A DNA stretch of 32,919 nt from Syntrophomonadaceae bacterium (GTDB taxonomy: Bacteria > Bacillota > PH28-bin88): NCBI GenBank assembly GCA_018333865.1, contig JAGXSE010000052.1, positions 1-32,919 of the forward strand, read 5' to 3'. Position 1 is the first letter of the stretch. Each line of letters starts with the position of its first letter. The notes under the pieces are model-generated. The model saw nothing but the letters and a program-made list of their open reading frames with translations, did no database searches and was not told the DNA's origin. Positions 18,329 through 32,919 of this stretch are shown here, one piece after another. The translations under genes and the position numbers were made by a program.

Positions 18329-18895
18329 GGGGACGGGGTTCTTGACACATTACCAGCACTGTTTTAATCTGGCAAATAGGTGTTGTTTGTGCCAAGACAG
18401 CCCAGGGAAAAGAGCAATAAACCGGCAAAACATCTTTGAAGACGGGGAAGATAACCAGAAGTTTCTCGATGCTTTGCAGCGCTATAAAGAAATTTGTGCT
18501 TATAGTCTATATGTATACTGTTTAATGGGTAACCACGTTCACCTGTTGCTGCAAGTCGGCGTTGTGCCAATGACACAGCTCATGTGCAGGATATGCGGCA
18601 GTTATGTCTATTGGTACAATAAAAAACATGCATGGATTGGCAACCTGTTTACAGGACCGGTTTAAAGCGAGACGGTTGAAGATGATGCGTATTTTTTAAC
18701 CGTCCTCAGGTACATCCACCAGAACCCTTGCAAGGCTGGCCTGGAGAAGACGCAAAGGAATATTTATCTTAAAAAGCTCAAGGATGAATACAACCTTTCA
18801 GTCAGGCAAATTGCTAGACTAACAGGGATTAACCGGGGTATTGTTTGCCGGGCATAAATATGACTGGCGGAAAATGTGTCAAGAACCCCGTCCCC
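18329..18895. mobile_element. REP-associated transposase element, degenerate copy
   Basis: A 23-bp perfect terminal inverted repeat (18329-18351 and 18873-18895; core GGGGTTCTTGACACATT) encloses a broken RAYT gene. A second partial copy of the left end directly precedes it (from about 18300), with CTGCCAAGG repeats before that. The 162 bp at 18742-18903 are identical to 30482-30643. Confidence 0.85.
18389..18857 (+). pseudogene. REP-associated tyrosine transposase, frameshifted and deleted
   Basis: Recognisable pieces in order are VPRQPREKSN; INRQNIFEDGEDNQKFLDAL; the catalytic segment YCLMGNHVHLLLQ with the HxH of Y1 transposases; YIHQNPCKAGL with the conserved IHxNP region; and the C-terminal helix-turn-helix LSVRQIARLTGINRGIVCRA. 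Compared with the 4168 fragment, about 33 nt are lost near the start, shifting the frame. Near 18650-18670 one base is gained and one lost, creating a stop. Part of the middle is missing before the C-terminal domain. The element cannot mobilise itself. Confidence 0.8.
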
Positions 18896-18906
18896 TCGTC
18901 CCCCCC

Positions 18907-19311: not shown

Positions 19312-21057
19312 TCAAATATTCCACGCTTCGGCCGCCTGCCGAATGGCCAGGAATCTCTTGTAGATACCTTCCTGCCCGATAAGCTCTTCGTGATTACCTT
19401 TCTGTGCGACTCGACCATTGTCGATTACCAAAATCTGATCTACATGCTGAATCGTGGCCAACCGATGGGCAATGATAATCACCGTCTTTCCGCGTGTCAG
19501 AGCGCTGATAGCTTCTTGGATATAATGTTCGTTCTCCGGATCGACACTCGCTGTGGCTTCGTCGAGAATGACGATCGGCGCGTTCTTTAGTATTGCTCTG
19601 GCAATCGAGATCCGCTGTTTTTCACCGCCCGAGAGGGAGGAGCCGCCCTCGCCGATCACTGTGTCGTACCCGTTGGGCAGCTCTACAATGAAGTCATGGC
19701 ATTGCGCCGCCTTTGCCGCTGACATAATCTCTTCATCCGAGGCGCCTGGTTTACCAAACCCTATGTTGTTTTTCACCGTGTCTTGAAACAAATATACGCT
19801 CTGAAACACCATGCTGATATTTGCCAGCAAACTATCGAGTGTAAATTCTCTCACATCCCTGCCGCCGATTTTTACGCTGCCGGCGTTCACATCGTAAAAC
19901 CGCGCGATCAGGTTGCAGATCGTTGTTTTGCCGCTGCCGGAAGGGCCAACAATGGCGGTCGTCGTGTACTGAGGAATCAGAAAAGACACGCTCTTGATGA
20001 CATCGCGCGTGTCATATCCGAATGAAACATTATCAAATTGAATTTCATAGGAATGAATCGGGATATTTTTGCCCTCTTGATCGATAAATTCCGCCTGCTC
20101 AATCTTCTTAAGCTTACTAAGCGTGGAATCGATAATAACCAATTCATGTGCCGCAACGTCCATGGCCTCCAGATGCACGAAGATGGTAAAGGAAAACATC
20201 GCCATCATCAGCACGACAGGCAGCCCCATTTGCCCACCCAGGACAAGCCATGCTGTAACCAAAACAATAAGCACAGATGCGCTCTTAAGCGCCAGCAGGT
20301 GCAGGCAATTAAAGAGTGCATACCCCTTCTGAATTTGTATGTTCACCTCTTTGCTGTCGCGATAAGCCTTTTTAACTCTTTCGATGGAAACGCCTTCTTG
20401 ATTGAAGGCCTTGACGGCCGCCATACCGCGAATGTATTCGATGGTGCTCGCTATCATATCCACCTGCGCCTTGCGACTAACAGGCTCGTTCTTTTTGCTT
20501 TTTTTACTTATTTCGCGCAAAAACAGCGCCGAAAGAAGTATGCCGACTGCCGAAATCAGTGCAGCGTAAAAATTAAAAATGGCAAGGAAGAGAATGGTAG
20601 CCAACACGTTGATATAGCCGTTGACGACGATATCGATCATTTTAATGCCCCGTAATTCCAGAACGGAAAGCTCGGTTGTCACCGCTGCAGATATGTCACC
20701 TAAATTGTATCGTGAAAAATAGCCCATTGGAACACGCTTTAGAATACCGCCGATTCGGATACGCTGCTCCGCCGCCACCTCGTAGCCGATGCTTTCCTGG
20801 GTTTTGGCGCGTAGGTAAGAAAAAAGGAAGCGCAGCAATACAAGCACAACAAGGGCAAACAATATGAACCAAATGAAGTTTGGTTGCAGTTTAATTTCAC
20901 CTCGCCAGTCGGCTATCACCCGGCTCAAGGTATAGATCGCTACCATGATGGGCATGGAGGTAAAGATGCTCACAAGAAACGAATAGACAAAGCCAAGATA
21001 AAGCCTTTTTTTATATGGACCGACCCAGTTGAAGATAATTTTTAGTGTATTAAACAT
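19312..21057 (-). CDS. ABC transporter, fused permease-ATPase half-transporter (YbtQ/IrtB-like)
   Basis: A 581-residue half-transporter. An N-terminal six-helix ABC transmembrane domain covers about 1-310. The ATPase domain has Walker A GPSGSGKTT, signature LSGGEKQR, Walker B and D-loop IVILDEATASVDPENE, and the H-loop in IIAHRLATI. The start is ATG at 21057 (MFNTLKIIFNWVGPY); a longer frame from 21084 lies within the upstream gene. It overlaps the partner half-transporter by 8 nt, so the two form a heterodimer. Despite the exporter fold, YbtPQ and IrtAB pairs import ferric siderophores. Import is inferred here from the ECF and PchR-like neighbours. Confidence 0.9.
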   Translation of the reverse strand: MFNTLKIIFNWVGPYKKRLYLGFVYSFLVSIFTSMPIMVAIYTLSRVIADWRGEIKLQPNFIWFILFALVVLVLLRFLFSYLRAKTQESIGYEVAAEQRIRIGGILKRVPMGYFSRYNLGDISAAVTTELSVLELRGIKMIDIVVNGYINVLATILFLAIFNFYAALISAVGILLSALFLREISKKSKKNEPVSRKAQVDMIASTIEYIRGMAAVKAFNQEGVSIERVKKAYRDSKEVNIQIQKGYALFNCLHLLALKSASVLIVLVTAWLVLGGQMGLPVVLMMAMFSFTIFVHLEAMDVAAHELVIIDSTLSKLKKIEQAEFIDQEGKNIPIHSYEIQFDNVSFGYDTRDVIKSVSFLIPQYTTTAIVGPSGSGKTTICNLIARFYDVNAGSVKIGGRDVREFTLDSLLANISMVFQSVYLFQDTVKNNIGFGKPGASDEEIMSAAKAAQCHDFIVELPNGYDTVIGEGGSSLSGGEKQRISIARAILKNAPIVILDEATASVDPENEHYIQEAISALTRGKTVIIIAHRLATIQHVDQILVIDNGRVAQKGNHEELIGQEGIYKRFLAIRQAAEAWNI

Positions 21058-22831
21058 GCCCCTTTGTCTCCTTTCTTTTACCATCCGCTGCAGACCAGAT
21101 CTTTGCGCCGATATGAGCCTGCCACATATCCCGGTAGAGCGGGCACTCCTCCAATAATTGCGAGTGTGTTCCTACCCGGACAACGTGACCTTTTTTAAGG
21201 ACAATGATCTGGCCGGCATTTTTGATGGTGGACAGCCGATGTGCGATGACCAACAATGTTTTGCCCCTGGTCAGCGCGGTAATGGATTTTTGTATCTGCT
21301 CCTCATTTTCCGGATCGGTGAATGCCGTCGCCTCATCCAATATGACGATAGGAGCGTTTTTCAATATAGCCCGCGCAATGGCGATCCGCTGCTTTTCTCC
21401 GCCGGAAAGCCTTTTCCCAGCTTCTCCAGCGGAAGTGTCGTAGCCGTTTTCTAGGCGGAGGATAAATTCGGCGCAGCGAGCTGCCTTTGCCGCCTCAAAC
21501 ACCTCTTCATCGGTCGCGGAGGGTTTCCCAAGGCGGATATTCTCTTTTAACGAGCAATTAAATAAGAAATTGTCTTGTGTGACATAGCTTATAAGTTCCG
21601 CCAGCTGCGACAGCGGTATCTGGCGGACGTCCCTGCCACCGATTGAAATGCTGCCATCTGTCACGTCCCAGAACCGGGCGATCAGACGGGCCACGGTAGT
21701 CTTGCCGCCGCCCGAAGGCCCCACCAGAGCGGAAAAGCTCCCCTGAGGCAGCCGGAGATTGACGCCGTGAAGCACGTCCGCGCTTTCCGCACCGTAAGAG
21801 AAGGAGACGTCTTTAAGCTCAACGTCATAACCTGTAATTTGTGCCCGCGTTTGAGTGTTGGGGAGCTCCGGCAGGTTTAACAGCTTGTCGGCGTCGTTGA
21901 CGACATACTCCATCGCTTTGGCATCGTTGACAAAAACCGCAAATTTCGTGAGGGGTCCCACAATGCCCATAGACAGGATCAAGCACATCGTCAGTTCAGA
22001 CGGGGTTAATGCACCCTTTAAGTAAAGCGCGGTGCCGACGGGCAGCGTCCACAGCAGCGTAGAGGGCAAAATGGAAAGGCTCAGGTTCATCAGTGCCCAT
22101 GTGCTTTCAAACCACGCCATCGTAAAATTCTTAAAAGAGCTGACTGCTTTCGCAAACTTCTCGTAAGAGATCGCGGATTGGTTAAAGGTCTTGATAACCT
22201 CGATCCCTTCCACGTATTCGACAATGACGCTGTTGACATGATTGCTGGCTTTCATATACGCTTCATATCGTTTATTGAAGCCTTTCAGCCCCACAGCGAG
22301 GAGTACGCCTGCAACAGGCATGGTGACTAGTGCCGCAAGCGCCATACGCCAATCGATGACCCAAAGATAGATAAAAACGCCAATCGGCAAAAGCAGGTGG
22401 GAGATCATTTCGGGAATAACATGGGCCAGCGGCACCTCGATCGCCTCCACGCGGTCTACGATGGTATTTTTAAACTTGCCCGCAGTCTCGTTCAGCACGC
22501 TGCCGAGCGGCGCTTTCATCAGTTTGTCAGCGATTTTCAGCCGGATCGCCTCTAAAATCGTATAGGCCGAGATATGGGACAGTGATGTGGAGATACCATG
22601 GAACAAGAGCTTCAAAAGATATCCCGTAAGGCAGACCGCCGACCAAAATAAAAGCGGTCCTATGGCCGGAACTCCTTCGATAAACATGGAGATGATTTTA
22701 TACACGCCGAAATACGGCACAATGCCGGCTGCCACGCTGATGATGGCACAAATTACGGACAAAAGCATTTTCCCTTTGCATCTTGCCGCAAATATGAAAA
22801 GTGTGCCTATCCAGTTATTTCCTCTAACCAT
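21050..22831 (-). CDS. ABC transporter, fused permease-ATPase half-transporter (YbtP/IrtA-like)
   Basis: A 593-residue half-transporter. Transmembrane helices fill residues 10-300. Walker A is GPSGGGKTT (371-379), the signature is LSGGEKQRIAIARAIL, Walker B and D-loop are IVILDEATAFTDPENE, and the switch histidine is in IAHRLSTI. It lacks the N-terminal siderophore-reductase domain of mycobacterial IrtA. It is paired with the next gene (8-nt overlap) and lies 117 bp downstream of the AraC gene, behind its own possible weak promoter. The likely role is uptake of a metallophore or similar small molecule. Confidence 0.9.
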   Translation of the reverse strand: MVRGNNWIGTLFIFAARCKGKMLLSVICAIISVAAGIVPYFGVYKIISMFIEGVPAIGPLLFWSAVCLTGYLLKLLFHGISTSLSHISAYTILEAIRLKIADKLMKAPLGSVLNETAGKFKNTIVDRVEAIEVPLAHVIPEMISHLLLPIGVFIYLWVIDWRMALAALVTMPVAGVLLAVGLKGFNKRYEAYMKASNHVNSVIVEYVEGIEVIKTFNQSAISYEKFAKAVSSFKNFTMAWFESTWALMNLSLSILPSTLLWTLPVGTALYLKGALTPSELTMCLILSMGIVGPLTKFAVFVNDAKAMEYVVNDADKLLNLPELPNTQTRAQITGYDVELKDVSFSYGAESADVLHGVNLRLPQGSFSALVGPSGGGKTTVARLIARFWDVTDGSISIGGRDVRQIPLSQLAELISYVTQDNFLFNCSLKENIRLGKPSATDEEVFEAAKAARCAEFILRLENGYDTSAGEAGKRLSGGEKQRIAIARAILKNAPIVILDEATAFTDPENEEQIQKSITALTRGKTLLVIAHRLSTIKNAGQIIVLKKGHVVRVGTHSQLLEECPLYRDMWQAHIGAKIWSAADGKRKETKGHV

Positions 22832-22858
22832 AAGTATGATTCTTCCTTTCCGGTAAAA

Positions 22859-22894
22859 TAAATAAGGCTTGATTGAATTTTGTCAACCAAGCTT
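22859..22894 (-). promoter_or_regulatory. Possible internal promoter with inverted repeat
   Basis: Minus strand: TTGACA (22886-22881), 16 bp, TATTTA (22864-22859). An imperfect inverted repeat, AAGGCTTGATTGA (22864-22876) against TCAACCAAGCTT (22883-22894), overlaps the -35 box. It could be an operator or a weak attenuator before the half-transporter pair. Confidence 0.4.
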
Positions 22895-22948
22895 ATGATA
22901 TGATAAATAATTATATGTTGCCGCTCCGTACGGGCCATCCTGTTCCGT

Positions 22949-23908
22949 TCAGACAAAAGATTTTCGGTATTCGAGCGGGGATTTTCCCATCACGTCTTTG
23001 AAAGCGACGGCAAATTTGCTGGGGCTGTCGTAACCTACATGCCCGGCGATATCCGCAATGCTCGCTTCTTTGCTCGTGCGAAGCAGCACGGCCGCCTGAT
23101 TCATACGGTAGGTGCGCATGTAAGCAAAAATGGAGGTCCCGAAGACGCCCTTGAAGCAAGTTTTCATCGAAGTCAGAGGAATGTCAAATTTAGAGGACAA
23201 TTCATCCAATGTGTAATGTTTTTGCATATCCGAGGTGATAAACGCTTGGATTGCCTTGATTTTTTCTACCTGCGTTTTATAGAAATAAGGACGTTTTTCA
23301 TTACATGTCGGGATTTCCAGTGCGTCTAAAAACACAAGGAGTTCCAATACCTTAATTTTAAAATACGGTATTCTGATGTGGTCCGGCACCGTATACAGCT
23401 CGGAAAAGATGTGCTTTATAGCATTCTGTCCGCGGACTACACAGTGCACTCCTCCTGATAGGTATTTTTTCTGCAGAGCATACAGGTCTATGGAAAAACT
23501 GCTCATCTCTGCAGCTAGGGTTTTTGCCGCCTGCTCCATGCATAGCGCGACGGTAATGCCGTGGTAATGGCTTAGGGGGAATTCGAAATGGGTATTGTGC
23601 CCCTTTCGGTTATCGATTTTCAAATCCCCCGCCTCAAGGTAATCGTACGCTCCGTTTCCCATGTCTTGCTCAATGCGGCCCTCGCGGCAATGATCTATAC
23701 AAAACATATCTACATCTGGCTTAAATACAGAGTCGCAGCTTTGCATGTGGAAATCATTATAGATCAAATAGGCTCCGGAGAAAACGGTATAACAGATCAT
23801 AACGCCTTCGCCGGTTTGGTTTTTCATCTGATAAACGGCGCGCTTCTCATCCTCGACAACGATAGAGGGTATGTTGTGACCAACTAATATTAAATCATCT
23901 TTTGTCAT
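22949..23908 (-). CDS. AraC family regulator (PchR/YbtA-like)
   Basis: A 319-residue activator. Its large N-terminal sensing domain (about 1-215) contains DVDMFCIDHCREGRIEQDMG and GHNTHFEFPLSHYHGITVAL, resembling the PchR/YbtA group that senses ferric siderophores. The C-terminal double helix-turn-helix covers 220-319 (YTLDELSSKFDIPLTSMKTC, then IADIAGHVGYDSPSKFAVAF, SPLEYRKSF). The start is ATG at 23908, overlapping the ECF ATPase stop (ATGA), with AGAGGTG 8 nt upstream. It lies inside the operon it probably controls. The direct repeats at 26706-26736 are the candidate binding site. Confidence 0.88.
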   Translation of the reverse strand: MTKDDLILVGHNIPSIVVEDEKRAVYQMKNQTGEGVMICYTVFSGAYLIYNDFHMQSCDSVFKPDVDMFCIDHCREGRIEQDMGNGAYDYLEAGDLKIDNRKGHNTHFEFPLSHYHGITVALCMEQAAKTLAAEMSSFSIDLYALQKKYLSGGVHCVVRGQNAIKHIFSELYTVPDHIRIPYFKIKVLELLVFLDALEIPTCNEKRPYFYKTQVEKIKAIQAFITSDMQKHYTLDELSSKFDIPLTSMKTCFKGVFGTSIFAYMRTYRMNQAAVLLRTSKEASIADIAGHVGYDSPSKFAVAFKDVMGKSPLEYRKSFV

Positions 23909-25320
23909 GCATTCCGCACCTCTTTTCCGTTGCAGTTTAGTGTGAGCACGACCGTCCGGTCGCACACGCAGTTTAGAAACTCCATGTCGTGGCTGACGAT
24001 CAAGATGATGTGTTGCGCTTCAGCCAGCTTCTTGATCATCCCGCCTACCGCCATCATCTGCTCGTAGTCCAGGCCGCTGGTTGGCTCATCGAAGACGAGT
24101 ATCTTTTTACCGCTCAATACCCCGCACGCGATGGCCAGGCGCTGCCTTTGACCACCCGACAAGGCCATTGGATGCGCATTCTTATACTCAAACAGATCAA
24201 AAGCCCGCAACACAGCTTCGATCTCCGCTCTGCAATCGTCACCGGTGGATAGCACGCATTCATTCCACACGCTATCGCTGAAGAGTTGGTGATTGACATC
24301 CTGCATAACGCAGAAGCATTCCTTATTTCGCTGCCCTTGCGTCAGCGGTTTGCCGTCAAGCGACACCGACCCGCCTCTTTCCCGGGTAAGCCCGCAGATG
24401 CAGCGCAGCAGCGTACTTTTGCCCACGCCGTTGTTTCCCGTGATGCCCACGATTCCACCGCTGCCGGCCGAAAAGCTCACATGGTCAAAGATGCGGTTAC
24501 CCTTGATCTCACAGCAGAGATCCTTAATCATCAGCACATGTCCGGATTCACGCACTTGGGCATCAGGCGCGCGCAAGGCATTTGCTTGCAGTGTGCGCAA
24601 GCCCATCCTGATCCGCTGCTCGTCGGAGAGCGCCAAGAATTCGTCGCGAGTATAGATGCGTACGATTTCTCCATTTTCCATATAAACCGCCCGGTCAATG
24701 AGGTCGGTTAAAAAATACAGCCTGTGCTCGGCGATCAGGATGGTTTTACCTTGGCGTTTGATTTCCCGAAGTTGCCGCTTTAGAACCGCGATTGCATCTC
24801 CGTCCAGGTTAGCGGTAGGCTCGTCCAGAACAAAAATATCAGGATTCAAAGCGTAAACCGAGCCGAAGGCAAGCGCCTGTTTTTCCCCGCCGGACAGCGT
24901 GAAGATATTCCGGTGCAACAGTCTCTCGATCTGCAATTCTTCTGTCGTGGTTTTTAGCCGTTTCCGTATATACTCTGGATTCGCCCCGATGTTTTCCAAT
25001 CCAAAGGCAAGCTCAGCGTCAGAGTCAAGATTGAAAAACTGCGACTTGGGGTTTTGAAAAACTGAGCCAATCTTTTTTGATAACTCGTACAACTCCGTAC
25101 GGGCTACCTCCATTCCCGCCGCAGTGACTGTGCCTTTAAAATGGCCATTTCCTGTAAAATGGGGAATCAACCCATTGACCAGCTTCGTTACTGTCGTTTT
25201 CCCGCAACCGCTTTTTCCACACAGCAATACGCACTCGCCGGCTTCTATGTATAAATCAATGTTCCGCAATGTGTCCTTTTCGTGGGTATACCCAAAATAT
25301 ACCTTGTGGAATTTAACCAT
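23905..25320 (-). CDS. Energy-coupling factor ATPase, two fused nucleotide-binding domains
   Basis: A 471-residue protein with two ABC ATPase domains in one chain. The first has Walker A GKSGCGKTT, signature LSGGEKQ and Walker B IFVLDEPTANLDG. The second has Walker A GNNGVGKST, signature LSGGQRQR and Walker B ILVFDEPTSGLDY. This matches fused EcfA1A2. The start is ATG at 25320 (MVKFHKVYFGYTHE) with GAGGTG upstream; the longer frame would overlap EcfT. It lies 8 bp after the EcfT gene and powers uptake through the S component encoded first in the operon. Confidence 0.92.
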   Translation of the reverse strand: MVKFHKVYFGYTHEKDTLRNIDLYIEAGECVLLCGKSGCGKTTVTKLVNGLIPHFTGNGHFKGTVTAAGMEVARTELYELSKKIGSVFQNPKSQFFNLDSDAELAFGLENIGANPEYIRKRLKTTTEELQIERLLHRNIFTLSGGEKQALAFGSVYALNPDIFVLDEPTANLDGDAIAVLKRQLREIKRQGKTILIAEHRLYFLTDLIDRAVYMENGEIVRIYTRDEFLALSDEQRIRMGLRTLQANALRAPDAQVRESGHVLMIKDLCCEIKGNRIFDHVSFSAGSGGIVGITGNNGVGKSTLLRCICGLTRERGGSVSLDGKPLTQGQRNKECFCVMQDVNHQLFSDSVWNECVLSTGDDCRAEIEAVLRAFDLFEYKNAHPMALSGGQRQRLAIACGVLSGKKILVFDEPTSGLDYEQMMAVGGMIKKLAEAQHIILIVSHDMEFLNCVCDRTVVLTLNCNGKEVRNA

Positions 25321-25328
25321 CTCGCACC

Positions 25329-26015
25329 TCACCGCAACCAGAAAGCTATTAATGCAAAAACCAGACCGCAAACGATACAGATATAGTCCCGGAAACGGAA
25401 GCATAGTTCGATGACGCTGGTTTTGGGCGCTGGATTCTCAATCCCTCTTGTCACGGCCGCGGCACTGAGTTCATCTGCTGTATTGGCCGCCGAAAATATC
25501 AGTGGAACAATATATGCTTCGAACTTGGCTGCCCCAGTTATTCGGCGCAGTTTCATCGCGTCTCGTATATGTTTAATCTCTTCCCGGATGGCCGGAAAAT
25601 ACCGAATGGTTACCGAAAGCGGAATCACCAGCTTTTCTGGGAGGCGCCACTTTCGCATGGCGAGGACGAAATGCCGCATCGGCGTTGTCTTGACAATAAG
25701 CTTCCCAATCATAAGAATAGGAAACACTCTTCTTAAAAACGCTGTAAGAATAGAAAAAAAATCAGCGAAAATTTGAGGAGCAGCCGGAAATATATAGTGT
25801 TGCAACGTCAACAAGAAGCCGAATACCAAGACAAATTTCAGCCCGCTACCAAATAACCTGCAGTAAAGGAAAAGACCCATAAGTAAAACGAGCAACGTCA
25901 GCTCGACATAGAAAGAATTCTGCAAAATAACGACGATATTGACGAGTATTAAAAGCAGCAACAATGTTCTTGGATCAAAGCAGGTGGTATTTTCAGCTTT
26001 ACCATTTCCCGCCAT
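25329..26015 (-). CDS. Energy-coupling factor transmembrane protein (EcfT/CbiQ family)
   Basis: A 228-residue membrane scaffold with four to five hydrophobic helices and the two cytoplasmic coupling motifs of EcfT: RDAMKLRRI in the first coupling helix and AAAVTRGIE (Ala-Arg-Gly) in the second. It connects the double ATPase to the S component. It begins 2 bp after the S-component stop. It is clearly of the CbiQ/EcfT superfamily and appears intact. Confidence 0.92.
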   Translation of the reverse strand: MAGNGKAENTTCFDPRTLLLLLILVNIVVILQNSFYVELTLLVLLMGLFLYCRLFGSGLKFVLVFGFLLTLQHYIFPAAPQIFADFFSILTAFLRRVFPILMIGKLIVKTTPMRHFVLAMRKWRLPEKLVIPLSVTIRYFPAIREEIKHIRDAMKLRRITGAAKFEAYIVPLIFSAANTADELSAAAVTRGIENPAPKTSVIELCFRFRDYICIVCGLVFALIAFWLR

Positions 26016-26017
26016 GT

Positions 26018-26629
26018 CTATACGATCCCCGCCTTTATGAAGTGCTTGCCGAAAAGGGCTCTGGCAATCAGTGTCCCTACGATTGCAAGCACCATTGTTA
26101 CGAGTATAATAACCATCAGCATACCATCGGTTACAAGTTTTGACAAAACGGAAAGGTATTCCGCGGATACTCCATGCTGAGAAATCTGTGCGAAGAAGCT
26201 GTCCTTGAATAACCAGAGCGGCAGAAATGAACCGATAATACCCAGCGAGTAAAACACGAAAGAGGCGGCGTTCCCTATAAAACTTTTATATTTTGTGATA
26301 AAGCGTACCGTTTCCGCCAGCACAGATGCTGCCGCGTAGGTAATGAGAATCACCACCGTAAACATTCCTGTTGCGAAATAGATGAGCCCTGTAATGAGCC
26401 CCATGATCAGAACCGCGAACGGCTTTTGCACCTTTGATGCCATCAGCAGATATGGTACGCTGGCGAAGACCGCTATTAGCCCCGGCATCATAAGCCACAT
26501 AATTGGATGGATTCCGCCCATAACGTGAAAGATGAGGTTGATGACCAGATAAATAGCCGAGAAAATGCCTATGGTGATCAAGTCTTTACCCCTCAATTCT
26601 CTGCTCGCGGTTGCCTGCATAGTTGACAT
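26018..26629 (-). CDS. ECF transporter S component (Trep_Strep/MptD-like)
   Basis: A 203-residue membrane protein with five to six hydrophobic helices: GKDLITIGIFSAIYLVINL, HPIMWLMMPGLIAVFASVPY, KPFAVLIMGLITGLIYFATG, and a C-terminal GTLIARALFGKHFIKAGI. It matches the Trep_Strep S-component group, which typically sits beside EcfA/EcfT genes. The substrate is not established for this protein; haem or a metallophore are possibilities from memory of similar loci. The start is ATG at 26629 with GGAGG 8 nt upstream. It is the first gene of the six-gene operon. Confidence 0.85.
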   Translation of the reverse strand: MSTMQATASRELRGKDLITIGIFSAIYLVINLIFHVMGGIHPIMWLMMPGLIAVFASVPYLLMASKVQKPFAVLIMGLITGLIYFATGMFTVVILITYAAASVLAETVRFITKYKSFIGNAASFVFYSLGIIGSFLPLWLFKDSFFAQISQHGVSAEYLSVLSKLVTDGMLMVIILVTMVLAIVGTLIARALFGKHFIKAGIV

Positions 26630-26674
26630 ATTGATGACCTCCCGAATTGCATATATCGTTCTAAATATACCATT

Positions 26675-26736
26675 ATTATAGAAATACAATGATAGGTGTT
26701 CAACTCCGTTTGGCCAATTTAGTACCGTTTGGACAA
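26675..26736 (-). promoter_or_regulatory. Promoter of the ECF/AraC/ABC operon with direct-repeat operator
   Basis: Minus strand: TTGAAC (26703-26698), 17 bp, TATAAT (26680-26675). Immediately upstream of the -35 box are two direct repeats of CCGTTTGG-N-CAA (plus-strand sense, 26706-26717 and 26725-26736), 19 bp apart. This is the geometry of an AraC-type activator site. 26737-26925 shows no gene. Confidence 0.7.
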
Positions 26737-30125: not shown

Positions 30126-30638
30126 CGAGGGGACGGGGTTCTTGACACATTACCAGTTCTGTATTAATGTAGCAAATACGTGTTGATTGTGCCTAGGCAG
30201 GCCTGGTGAAAGAGCTTGGACATTACAATTGGAGCAGTTATGGATCGTACATTGATGAGAATAATAACATAATAAGCTCAAGCTGGTGAATGCAGGTTTT
30301 GCCCTTAAGGTTTATGATGAAGATAAAATCAAGGCTGTACATTATTTTAAAGAACACCATAATAAAGAAACAATAGATGCCTGCCTGGATATGGATGAAA
30401 GATTTTGTATCTCCGACCAGGAGGCCGGGAAAATCATTCAGGACCTTTGTAAGATCAAAAGCGGGTCTGACTTACAAAAGATGGAGAAGACGCAAAGGAA
30501 TATTTATCTTAAAAAGCTCAAGGATGAATACAACCTTTCAGTCAGGCAAATTGCTAGACTAACAGGGATTAACCGGGGTATTGTTTGCCGGGCATAAATA
30601 TGACTGGCGGAAAATGTGTCAAGAACCCCGTCCCCTCG
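30126..30638. mobile_element. REP-associated transposase element, internally deleted copy
   Basis: A 513-bp element bounded by a perfect 26-bp terminal inverted repeat (30126-30151 and 30613-30638; core GGGGTTCTTGACACATT). It keeps the left end, a remnant start and the C-terminal third of the transposase. The catalytic region is gone. Its right-hand 162 bp are identical to 18742-18903. Confidence 0.88.
30189..30597 (+). pseudogene. REP-associated tyrosine transposase, C-terminal remnant
   Basis: The N-terminus VPRQAW is stopped after six codons. Then comes a degenerate SYGSYIDENNNII piece (a typical post-catalytic RAYT segment). An open frame of 103 residues follows from 30286 (VNAGFALKVYDEDKIKAVHY ... 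RQIARLTGINRGIVCRA), carrying the C-terminal helix-turn-helix. The HxH and Tyr are absent. If translated, the 103-residue piece could still bind element ends, but no ribosome binding site supports this. Confidence 0.75.
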
Positions 30639-30669
30639 TCCCCGACAGCGTCCCCTCGTCCCCGACCAA

Positions 30670-31251: not shown

Positions 31252-31297
31252 TTGATTCAGAATTTAAAACGTGCTATTATCGTAATATACGAGGAGG
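31252..31297 (+). promoter_or_regulatory. Promoter and ribosome binding site of the Cfr/RlmN-like leader
   Basis: TTGATT (31252-31257), 17 bp, TATTAT (31275-31280), then GAGGAGG (31291-31297). This leaves a leader of about 280 nt before the methyltransferase gene. An 11-bp inverted repeat (31232-31242 and 31324-31334, GCATTTGGAAA) flanks the promoter. Confidence 0.7.
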
Positions 31298-31307
31298 ATT
31301 TTTTCTT

Positions 31308-31337
31308 ATGTTGCATTCTATTCGCATTTGGAAATAA
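31308..31337 (+). CDS. Nine-residue leader peptide MLHSIRIWK
   Basis: ATG at 31308 lies 10 nt after a strong GGAGG and encodes MLHSIRIWK followed by TAA. Two intrinsic terminators follow before the methyltransferase start. Short well-initiated peptides in front of terminators are the hallmark of ribosome-mediated attenuation of antibiotic-resistance genes (erm, ABC-F and similar cases). Stalling of a drug-bound ribosome here would alter folding of the RNA downstream. The stalling codon cannot be predicted from sequence alone. Confidence 0.65.
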   Translation: MLHSIRIWK

Positions 31338-31346
31338 TAGGCAATA

Positions 31347-31380
31347 AGAAGCAGTTTCACATTTTAATGTGGGCTTTTTT
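31347..31380 (+). terminator. First leader terminator
   Basis: A CACAT/ATGTG stem (31358-31362/31367-31371), extended by AAGC/GCTT (31349-31352/31373-31376), is followed by TTTTTT. It starts 9 nt after the leader peptide stop. Confidence 0.6.
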
Positions 31381-31478
31381 GTCGTGCATATTATGCGAAT
31401 ATATGCAACTAAGTGACTATAAGACATGGTTTATAAAGCTATGATTTAGTTTTGTTGTGTTATTGCTCGTACTATATA

Positions 31479-31519
31479 TGCAGTTCAATGCTCACATTGA
31501 GAATTGACCTGCATTTTTT
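31479..31519 (+). terminator. Second leader terminator, before the methyltransferase gene
   Basis: A symmetrical hairpin: TGCAG/CTGCA, a T-C mismatch, TCAAT/ATTGA, a G-A mismatch, CTCA/TGAG and a CAT loop (31479-31513). It is followed by TTTTTTATT and, shortly after, TTTTTTATT again. It is a strong intrinsic terminator 48 nt before the gene start, the classic attenuator position. Confidence 0.75.
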
Positions 31520-31566
31520 ATTGCCTTTTTTATTATTCCAAAATTAATAGAAAAGGACATAGAAAA

Positions 31567-32547
31567 ATGAAATATTTGCACAGACATACTCCTGATGATA
31601 TCCGGAGTGTTCCATACGGATTTACCTACAAAGAAATGGTGGAGGTCATTGGTGAGAGTGAAGCGAGATCCTTATACTCGTCACTATATAAGCATTCACC
31701 CAAAAAAGAATACCTAACTATGTCGCTAAAAACAGTCTACAAGGACGGCAACACTGAAAAATATGTTTTTGAGTTGTTAGACGGCAAGTGTATTGAAACG
31801 GTTTTTATTAAACGTCTAGATGGTGGAACGGTTTGCGTGAGTACACAAATCGGTTGTTCCGTTGGTTGTATCTTCTGCGAGTCCGGGCGGAACGGCTTTG
31901 TTCGTAATCTGACGCCATCAGAAATTGTACAGCAGGTTATACTACTACGTCGAAAGGTAAACCGTATCGTTTTTATGGGTATGGGAGAGCCGCTATTCAA
32001 CTATACCAACTTTATAAAGGCAATTCACATTCTGCGAGACAGAAACGGCCTGAACTTTCCCACGGACGGCATTACAGTATCAACTGTCGGCCCAGTTGAA
32101 CAACTGAAAAAATTGCGTGAGGAACATCTTAAAATTCAATTGACAATCTCTCTGCATGCAACAACACAGGCTACAAGAAACCGTATTATGCCCAATATGC
32201 ACAGATACGATATTAACGATGTTGTCAATGAGGCATTGTCTTATACTAAACGGCACAATCGAAAAGTCGTGTTTGCGTATTTGTTTTTGCAGGGAATAAA
32301 CGACAAGCCTTCTGATGTGCGTCAACTGGCAAGGTGGTTCCGTGGAAAAAATGTCATGCTCAATCTACTTGAATATAATCCTACAAGTAATACGCAAATT
32401 AAAAAGCCAGCAAAACAGGAAATGACTGCATTCAAACAGCAGCTGGAACGAGCCGGGCTCGAAGTTGCAATGAGAATTTCCCATGGTAGAAATATTAAGG
32501 CGGCTTGTGGACAGTTGGCTAATAAATACAATGAAAAGAATAAATAA
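31567..32547 (+). CDS. Cfr/RlmN-family radical SAM 23S rRNA methyltransferase
   Basis: A 326-residue radical SAM enzyme. Known members methylate A2503 of 23S rRNA (C2 by RlmN, C8 by Cfr, the latter giving multidrug resistance). The cluster motif CSVGCIFC has Cys97, Cys101 and Cys104. The two extra reactive cysteines of the mechanism are present: Cys90 (TVCVSTQ) and Cys314 (KAACGQL). The SAM motif is FMGMGEP (136-142). LLEYNPTSN resembles the Cfr-side IRYNPT motif, while GMGEPL is RlmN-like, so the subtype is undecided. The N-terminal domain is about 40 residues shorter than in typical RlmN. The start is ATG at 31567 with AAGGA 10 nt upstream. The leader-peptide attenuator upstream suggests antibiotic-inducible expression, unlike housekeeping rlmN. 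Confidence 0.9.
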   Translation: MKYLHRHTPDDIRSVPYGFTYKEMVEVIGESEARSLYSSLYKHSPKKEYLTMSLKTVYKDGNTEKYVFELLDGKCIETVFIKRLDGGTVCVSTQIGCSVGCIFCESGRNGFVRNLTPSEIVQQVILLRRKVNRIVFMGMGEPLFNYTNFIKAIHILRDRNGLNFPTDGITVSTVGPVEQLKKLREEHLKIQLTISLHATTQATRNRIMPNMHRYDINDVVNEALSYTKRHNRKVVFAYLFLQGINDKPSDVRQLARWFRGKNVMLNLLEYNPTSNTQIKKPAKQEMTAFKQQLERAGLEVAMRISHGRNIKAACGQLANKYNEKNK

Positions 32548-32665: not shown

Positions 32666-32697
32666 GCGTAAAATAACCCGCCTTTTTAGGAGGCGGG
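32666..32697 (-). terminator. Terminator overlapping the end of the IS66 transposase
   Basis: A CCCGCCT/AGGCGGG stem (32677-32683/32691-32697) with the transposase stop codon in its loop, followed on the minus strand by TTATTTTA. 32548-32665 holds only a weak AAGCGC/GCGCTT hairpin and presumably the IS66 end sequence. Confidence 0.6.
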
Positions 32698-32919
32698 CAT
32701 TTCGTCACTTATTTTCCTGATCCGGCACCTGGCCGGCAAGCTGTTGGACCATGGAAGCAGTTTGTCTAAGGCATCTCGATCTTTGACATCCATATTAGGC
32801 ATCTGTTCGAACAAGTAGATCAGGTAGGTGAAGGGGTTTAAGCCATTTTCCTTGGCCGTTTCGACGATGCTATAAATCGTGGCGCTGGCCTTCGCACCAT
32901 GAGGCGTATTCGCAAATAG
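32686..32919 (-). CDS. IS66 family transposase (TnpC), C-terminal part
   Basis: The last 77 residues of an IS66 transposase, continuing past the window edge: LFANTPHGAKASATIYSIVE, then TAKENGLNPFTYLIYLFEQM and DKLLPWSNSLPARCRI. This includes the conserved NTP-GA-ASA-Y...E-AK-NGL-P segment of the IS66 C-terminal element. The DDE catalytic core lies outside the window, so completeness is unknown. The element points toward the methyltransferase gene and ends about 140 bp from it. Confidence 0.88.
   Translation of the reverse strand, partial: LFANTPHGAKASATIYSIVETAKENGLNPFTYLIYLFEQMPNMDVKDRDALDKLLPWSNSLPARCRIRKISDEMPAS

Follow-up and report, generated by a model that had tools for sequence, protein, structure and literature searches.

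The window analysed here is the whole stretch of 32,919 nucleotides of contig JAGXSE010000052.1, from a Syntrophomonadaceae bacterium. Near its end, on the forward strand, lies the gene of a MrmA-family radical SAM rRNA methyltransferase (326 amino acids, positions 31567 to 32547, with an ATG start at 31567). It is preceded by a Shine-Dalgarno sequence, GAGGAGG (31291 to 31297), a nine-codon leader ORF of the macrolide-stall type, MLHSIRIWK (31308 to 31337), a terminator-like hairpin followed by a U run, designated T1 (31355 to 31381), and an intrinsic terminator made of a stem and TTTTTT, designated T2 (31478 to 31519). An earlier note, made from the letters of the sequence, had pointed to a strong ribosome binding site, this peptide and two terminators, and all of these stand; T1 is weak (-4.3 kcal/mol) and T2 is strong (-15.1 kcal/mol, with six U). 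A consensus scanner listed neither T1 nor T2, and an Rfam scan of the window gave no match. The promoter in the same description fared less well: the candidate TTGATT-17-TATTAT, with a TG before the -10 box (31252 to 31280), came from a consensus scan that returned 8 promoter-like matches where 5.0 +/- 2.3 are expected by chance, and is thus not above chance.

The enzyme had been described as a radical SAM protein with the full set of catalytic cysteines, a short N-terminus and a mixture of YNPT and GMGEP motifs. We found the same: Cys90, Cys97, Cys101, Cys104 and Cys314 are all present, at positions that are essentially invariant among 105 homologues, 96 residues stand N-terminal of the cluster motif, compared to a median of 115 in RlmN, and both motifs occur. 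The AlphaFold model (pLDDT 91) has the RlmN fold, with TM scores of 0.81 to 0.89 against solved RlmN structures.

A phylogeny computed with IQ-TREE placed the window protein in one clade with MrmA and 8 relatives (10 distinct proteins, support 100/99, recovered in 100% of bootstrap trees). MrmA (WP_002584956.1) is an RlmN-type methylase carried by Tn6110 and Tn7806, known from a paper on Clostridioides difficile RT176 (PMC11983580). Loci L085 and L095 were identified as mrmA because the published cloning primers for this gene match both of its ends there with 0 mismatches, an identification that rests on these primer matches; at the other loci the primers fit badly. Identity between this MrmA and the window protein is 75%. 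We conclude that the window gene belongs to the MrmA family of erythromycin-resistance methylases. The earlier note had thought an undescribed determinant possible; the gene is not entirely that, as its family received a name in 2025. In its main text, the paper on MrmA makes no mention of a leader in front of mrmA (PMC11983580).

The likeness to MrmA of Tn6105, Tn6110 and Tn7806 in C. difficile extends to the catalytic cysteines, the short N-terminus, altered rRNA-contact residues, an upstream leader of the same kind, and the company of a housekeeping rlmN. Indeed, a search of the host genome for a separate rlmN, which the earlier note had proposed, found a second, ordinary one at G000:C65:183756, with 42% identity to the window protein, so the window gene is not the housekeeping copy. 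The whole genomes of four further carriers (G399 to G402) likewise each contained a separate rlmN, and genomes related to the host usually have just one. The window gene is probably a second RlmN relative that was acquired horizontally. The two loci differ, however, in several respects. The proteins diverge by 25%, and the resistance phenotype is known for MrmA, whereas for the window gene it is predicted. No element of the Tn4451/Tn6110 type is visible around the window gene. Finally, at L003, L004, L005, L084 and L085 the attenuator is separated from the methylase gene by a small gene for a cysteine-rich KTR (zinc-ribbon) protein, which the window lacks.

Close relatives (61 to 77% identity) are rare. 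They were found in 2 of 399 genomes of the phylum, the host being counted, at four loci of a collection of 84,980 species, and on three plasmid records, one phage-labelled record and four IMG/VR contigs. A search for further carriers around genome G072, among 62 genomes of its order and 381 of its class, returned G072 itself only. Three unrelated records share an identical MrmA protein, as expected for a mobile gene, and mobility of the close relatives is seen directly in several neighbourhoods. L084 is part of a Tn4451-like element that carries a relaxase, MobC, TnpW and a recombinase. L083 is on the P. bifermentans plasmid pHD0315_2-5, which also carries a mef-like pump, hflX and tetA(P)/tetB(P). 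L093 adjoins a mef-like pump, an IS3 element, a truncated ACI-type beta-lactamase gene, a recombinase and an RlmA-like methylase. The GC content of the window copy is 40.9%, compared to 49.8% at the rlmN locus of the genome.

Several further observations were made on these loci. At L083 (479 to 4330), three genes of macrolide type, the mef-like pump, hflX and the mrmA-like gene, stand in tandem, each behind a short ORF preceded by a Shine-Dalgarno sequence (MNAKQAVIIFGI, MVICRGIFFLRLRG and MIINFMRIR); the leader of hflX itself ends in FFLRLRG. The methylase gene near the mrmA-like gene and pump of L093 (9880 to 10713) is of the RlmA type, a family of G745/G748 methylases. An MrmA-like outlier of 50% identity occurs at L087, on plasmid pEJ03 of Rhodobacter xanthinilyticus, between TetR and LysR genes and beside floR and tet(G); it forms the sister branch of the MrmA clade (100/98) and retains the Tyr-Arg of an N-terminal motif discussed below. 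At L095 (5300 to 5765), the T2 region of the leader is split by an insertion with hairpin ends, in front of an enzyme identical to MrmA; this insertion might make the gene constitutive.

In the window itself, positions 32686 to 32919 (minus strand) encode the C-terminal end of an IS66-type transposase that is present in several copies and ends the contig. As the contig breaks there, a carrier element around the gene cannot be shown. A REP-like short repeat (ATGACTGGCGGAAAATGTGTCAAGAACCCCGTCCCC...) occurs at 18860 to 18903 and at 30600 to 30643, and recurs at about 40 further sites in the genome. A transposon bounded by the repeats at 18.9 and 30.6 kb was considered and found unsupported, the shared piece being mostly this genome-wide repeat. 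Positions 19312 to 26689 (minus strand), with AraC-type regulators, paired ABC exporters and a two-domain ABC ATPase, probably form an uptake/export cluster.

The leader peptide is conserved in relatives. MLHSMRIR is found at L004, L005/L084, L094 and L085/L095, so that the MrmA leader ends in MRIR and that of the window in IRIWK; L003 has MLHSIRIRK and L083 has MIINFMRIR. No leader was found at L006, L086, L093 and L096. Synonymous codon changes were observed at Ser (TCT/AGC, a two-step change), Arg (CGA/AGA and CGC/CGT) and Leu (TTA/TTG) while the peptide stays constant, which argues that the peptide itself is what is kept. At L083, the peptide motif precedes a quite different RNA fold, another sign that the motif itself matters. 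When the leader DNA was compared with plasmids, it matched two mrmA-bearing records only, with no sign of the same RNA serving other genes.

Published macrolide leaders include MTASMRLR (mef), MTASMRLK (msrA) and MTHSMRLR (ermD) (PMC4335068). With those of erm(D/K) and mef(A/E), the window leader shares a length of 8 to 9 codons, the frame M-x-x-S-[M/I]-R-[L/I] and a strong Shine-Dalgarno sequence (PMC4335068, PMC8298421). Short ORFs of the form M..[SAG].[RK].[RKW] preceded by a Shine-Dalgarno sequence arose in 0.045% of 20,000 dinucleotide shuffles, the motif having been chosen after this literature was seen. The attenuators are also alike in that the leader pairs with downstream RNA and a distal segment with the terminator, as is predicted for the window. 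They differ in their target gene and in the Trp at position 8 of the window peptide, and no sequence homology was noticed beyond the peptide. Because a leader peptide of the erythromycin-stalling kind stands in front of it, the window gene is most likely switched on by macrolides. A drug-inducible resistance methylase, as proposed in the earlier note, is thus the best reading, and its inducible part is well supported by the match of the relatives' peptides to the ermD and mef leaders and by the leader-controlled RNA pairing; its Cfr-like, A2503-modifying part is unsupported. The paper that describes MrmA reports no attenuator of macrolide type in its main text. An initial idea that the leader was that of a tet/RPP gene was dropped after the MRIR/MRLR match and the identification of MrmA.

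The 296-nt leader has a fold far more stable than those of shuffled sequences (z = -6.2). Within it, leader codons (31311 to 31327) form the 5' arm of a hairpin, P1, through predicted pairing with 31393 to 31408, and T1 is nested in this hairpin. The 3' half of T1 (31362 to 31374) is also the 5' arm of an antiterminator helix, whose predicted 3' arm (31490 to 31502) lies inside the 5' part of T2. In an alignment of six leaders, three of which are nearly alike, the 13 pairs of the antiterminator helix were paired in 100% of cells; both partners of one pair had changed (AU/GC), and another pair was found as UG, UA or CG. P1 had two pairs with changes on both sides. Sliding controls were only 30 to 50% paired. 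T2 is conserved at L004, L084, L085 and L094. These predicted structures suggest that pairing of the leader controls the choice between terminator and antiterminator, in a layout similar to that of mef(E), where a stretch immediately downstream of the leader base-pairs with both the terminator and its U tract (PMC4335068).

Constrained folds were used to estimate the effect of a ribosome on this choice. For the window, the antiterminator state is at -67.0 kcal/mol and the terminator state at -65.5 kcal/mol when no ribosome is present, a lead of 1.5 kcal/mol that grows to 6.9 kcal/mol with a ribosome on the leader. The antiterminator gains from the block in five of the six leaders, by roughly 8 to 15 kcal/mol for L004, L084, L085 and L094. 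This was not the case, however, for L003, where the balance moves the opposite way by about 4 kcal/mol, leaving the two states within about 1 kcal/mol. For the mrmA leaders proper, T2 stays the more stable structure in the equilibrium fold even with the ribosome placed. Co-transcriptional folding kinetics decide such switches, and the energies given here are those of equilibrium folds.

The window peptide departs from its relatives at one position: Trp8 replaces the Arg found in every other leader, so that the Arg/Lys-X-Arg/Lys of positions 6 to 8 (R-I-R in relatives) is absent and reads R-I-W. The main alternative to a leader that responds to erythromycin is therefore that this one is degenerate and leaky: the gene would still confer MrmA-type resistance, and its attenuator in this host would be uninducible, or leaky to the point of constitutive expression. 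The near-equal energies of the two folds in the absence of a ribosome would fit this. In ErmDL, however, almost every residue at position 8 is compatible with stalling by erythromycin, for which Ser4 is required, while the change Arg8Trp relieves stalling by telithromycin, a ketolide (PMC8298421). Ser4 is present in all MLHS leaders, and the window leader keeps both Ser4 and Arg6. The compensating changes that preserve P1 also speak against degeneration, which we regard as rather unlikely. By analogy with ErmDL, the Trp8 leader is predicted to stall in response to cladinose macrolides, of the erythromycin type, and not to ketolides.

The question then arises of what the enzyme does. When mrmA was expressed in E. 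coli delta-tolC, from which the whole of its phenotype is known, the MIC of erythromycin rose from 2 to 512-1024 ug/ml (about 512-fold), and that of streptogramin B rose as well; the MICs of tylosin, clindamycin, tiamulin, chloramphenicol and linezolid were essentially unchanged, so that there was no PhLOPSA resistance (PMC11983580). Its authors suggested a methylation target other than A2503 (PMC11983580). We took the rRNA contacts of Cfr from a cryo-EM preprint (PMC13001441), in which they include Tyr24, Arg25, Gln28, Trp101, Arg184, Arg185, His286 and Phe330, and read the same columns in the 105 homologues. All eight are replaced in the MrmA clade, as are most of the contact residues common to Cfr and RlmN, which dock on H90-H92. 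The N-terminal [FY]R..Q motif occurs in 0 of the 10 MrmA-clade proteins, compared to 88 of the 95 other homologues; in the clade, 8 of the 10 have Asp in place of Arg/Lys184, and all 10 have Gly in place of Arg185. This clade-wide replacement supports, without proving, the authors' suggestion, and the family probably acts on a different adenine of 23S rRNA. The replacement also runs counter to the A2503-modifying activity attributed to the window enzyme by the earlier note, since most of the residues by which Cfr grips the A2503 region are replaced in it.

These data bear on two other readings of the enzyme. It could be a second RlmN-type enzyme, regulated by stalling and making m2A2503, or m2A37 in tRNA, under stress, with no true role in resistance. 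Its best NCBIfam match is indeed RlmN (TIGR00048, 275.9 bits), although below the cut-off of 290, and it shares the fold and the catalytic residues of housekeeping RlmN. It lacks, however, the [FY]R..Q motif, the H90-binding Arg pair and a near-invariant Glu, found in 84 of 85 RlmN and replaced by Ala in the MrmA clade (A237 in the window protein). Moreover, the host already has an rlmN, the window gene is leader-regulated, accessory, rare and of a mobile kind, and MrmA confers strong erythromycin resistance; we consider this reading improbable. A drug-induced Cfr-like enzyme that methylates C8 of A2503 and confers PhLOPSA resistance, as the earlier note had it, shares with the window protein the radical SAM RlmN/Cfr superfamily with all its cysteines, the Ala at the RlmN-specific Glu position and, in its favour, the YNPT motif, but it is scarcely credible, given that Cfr, Cfr(C) and Cfr(D) are only 34 to 36% identical to the window protein and form another clade, beyond starred branches from that of MrmA (in a tree built without Cfr(B), Cfr(E) and Clb), that the NCBIfam CfrAB score is 194 bits, far under the cut-off of 530, that the contacts from Tyr24 to Phe330 are gone, and that the tested relative does not show the Cfr drug spectrum.

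We therefore favour, with good confidence, a MrmA-family macrolide-protection methyltransferase under transcription attenuation that is relieved by erythromycin. The RlmN-derived enzyme would protect the ribosome from 14-membered macrolides and, from the MrmA data, from streptogramin B. It would probably do so through methylation of 23S rRNA at an adenine that is not A2503. When no drug is present, the leader ORF would be translated through, its codons would pair downstream to form P1, and T2 would stop the transcript and keep the gene off. With erythromycin, a ribosome would stall on the leader, as published for leaders of this type, and block P1; the 3' half of T1 could then pair with the 5' half of T2, letting transcription continue into the gene. 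For the clade as a whole, a broader proposal seems to us evenly poised between right and wrong: that this branch of RlmN/Cfr has had its docking surface rebuilt and been re-aimed at a 23S adenine different from A2503, such as one in the wall of the macrolide site, and that an undescribed leader attenuator makes it inducible by the macrolides against which it protects.

MrmA is known from a single report of 2025, whose main text leaves regulation undiscussed. In public annotation, MrmA-family genes are labelled as housekeeping rlmN, so that resistance screens miss them, and the leader offers a simple sequence flag that separates the resistance copies from rlmN. The Trp8 leader yields a sharp prediction, namely that erythromycin induces the gene and ketolides do not, and, with the A2503-docking residues lost across the clade, the question of the target becomes directly testable. 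The conserved macrolide-type leader ties much of the MrmA clade to macrolide exposure.
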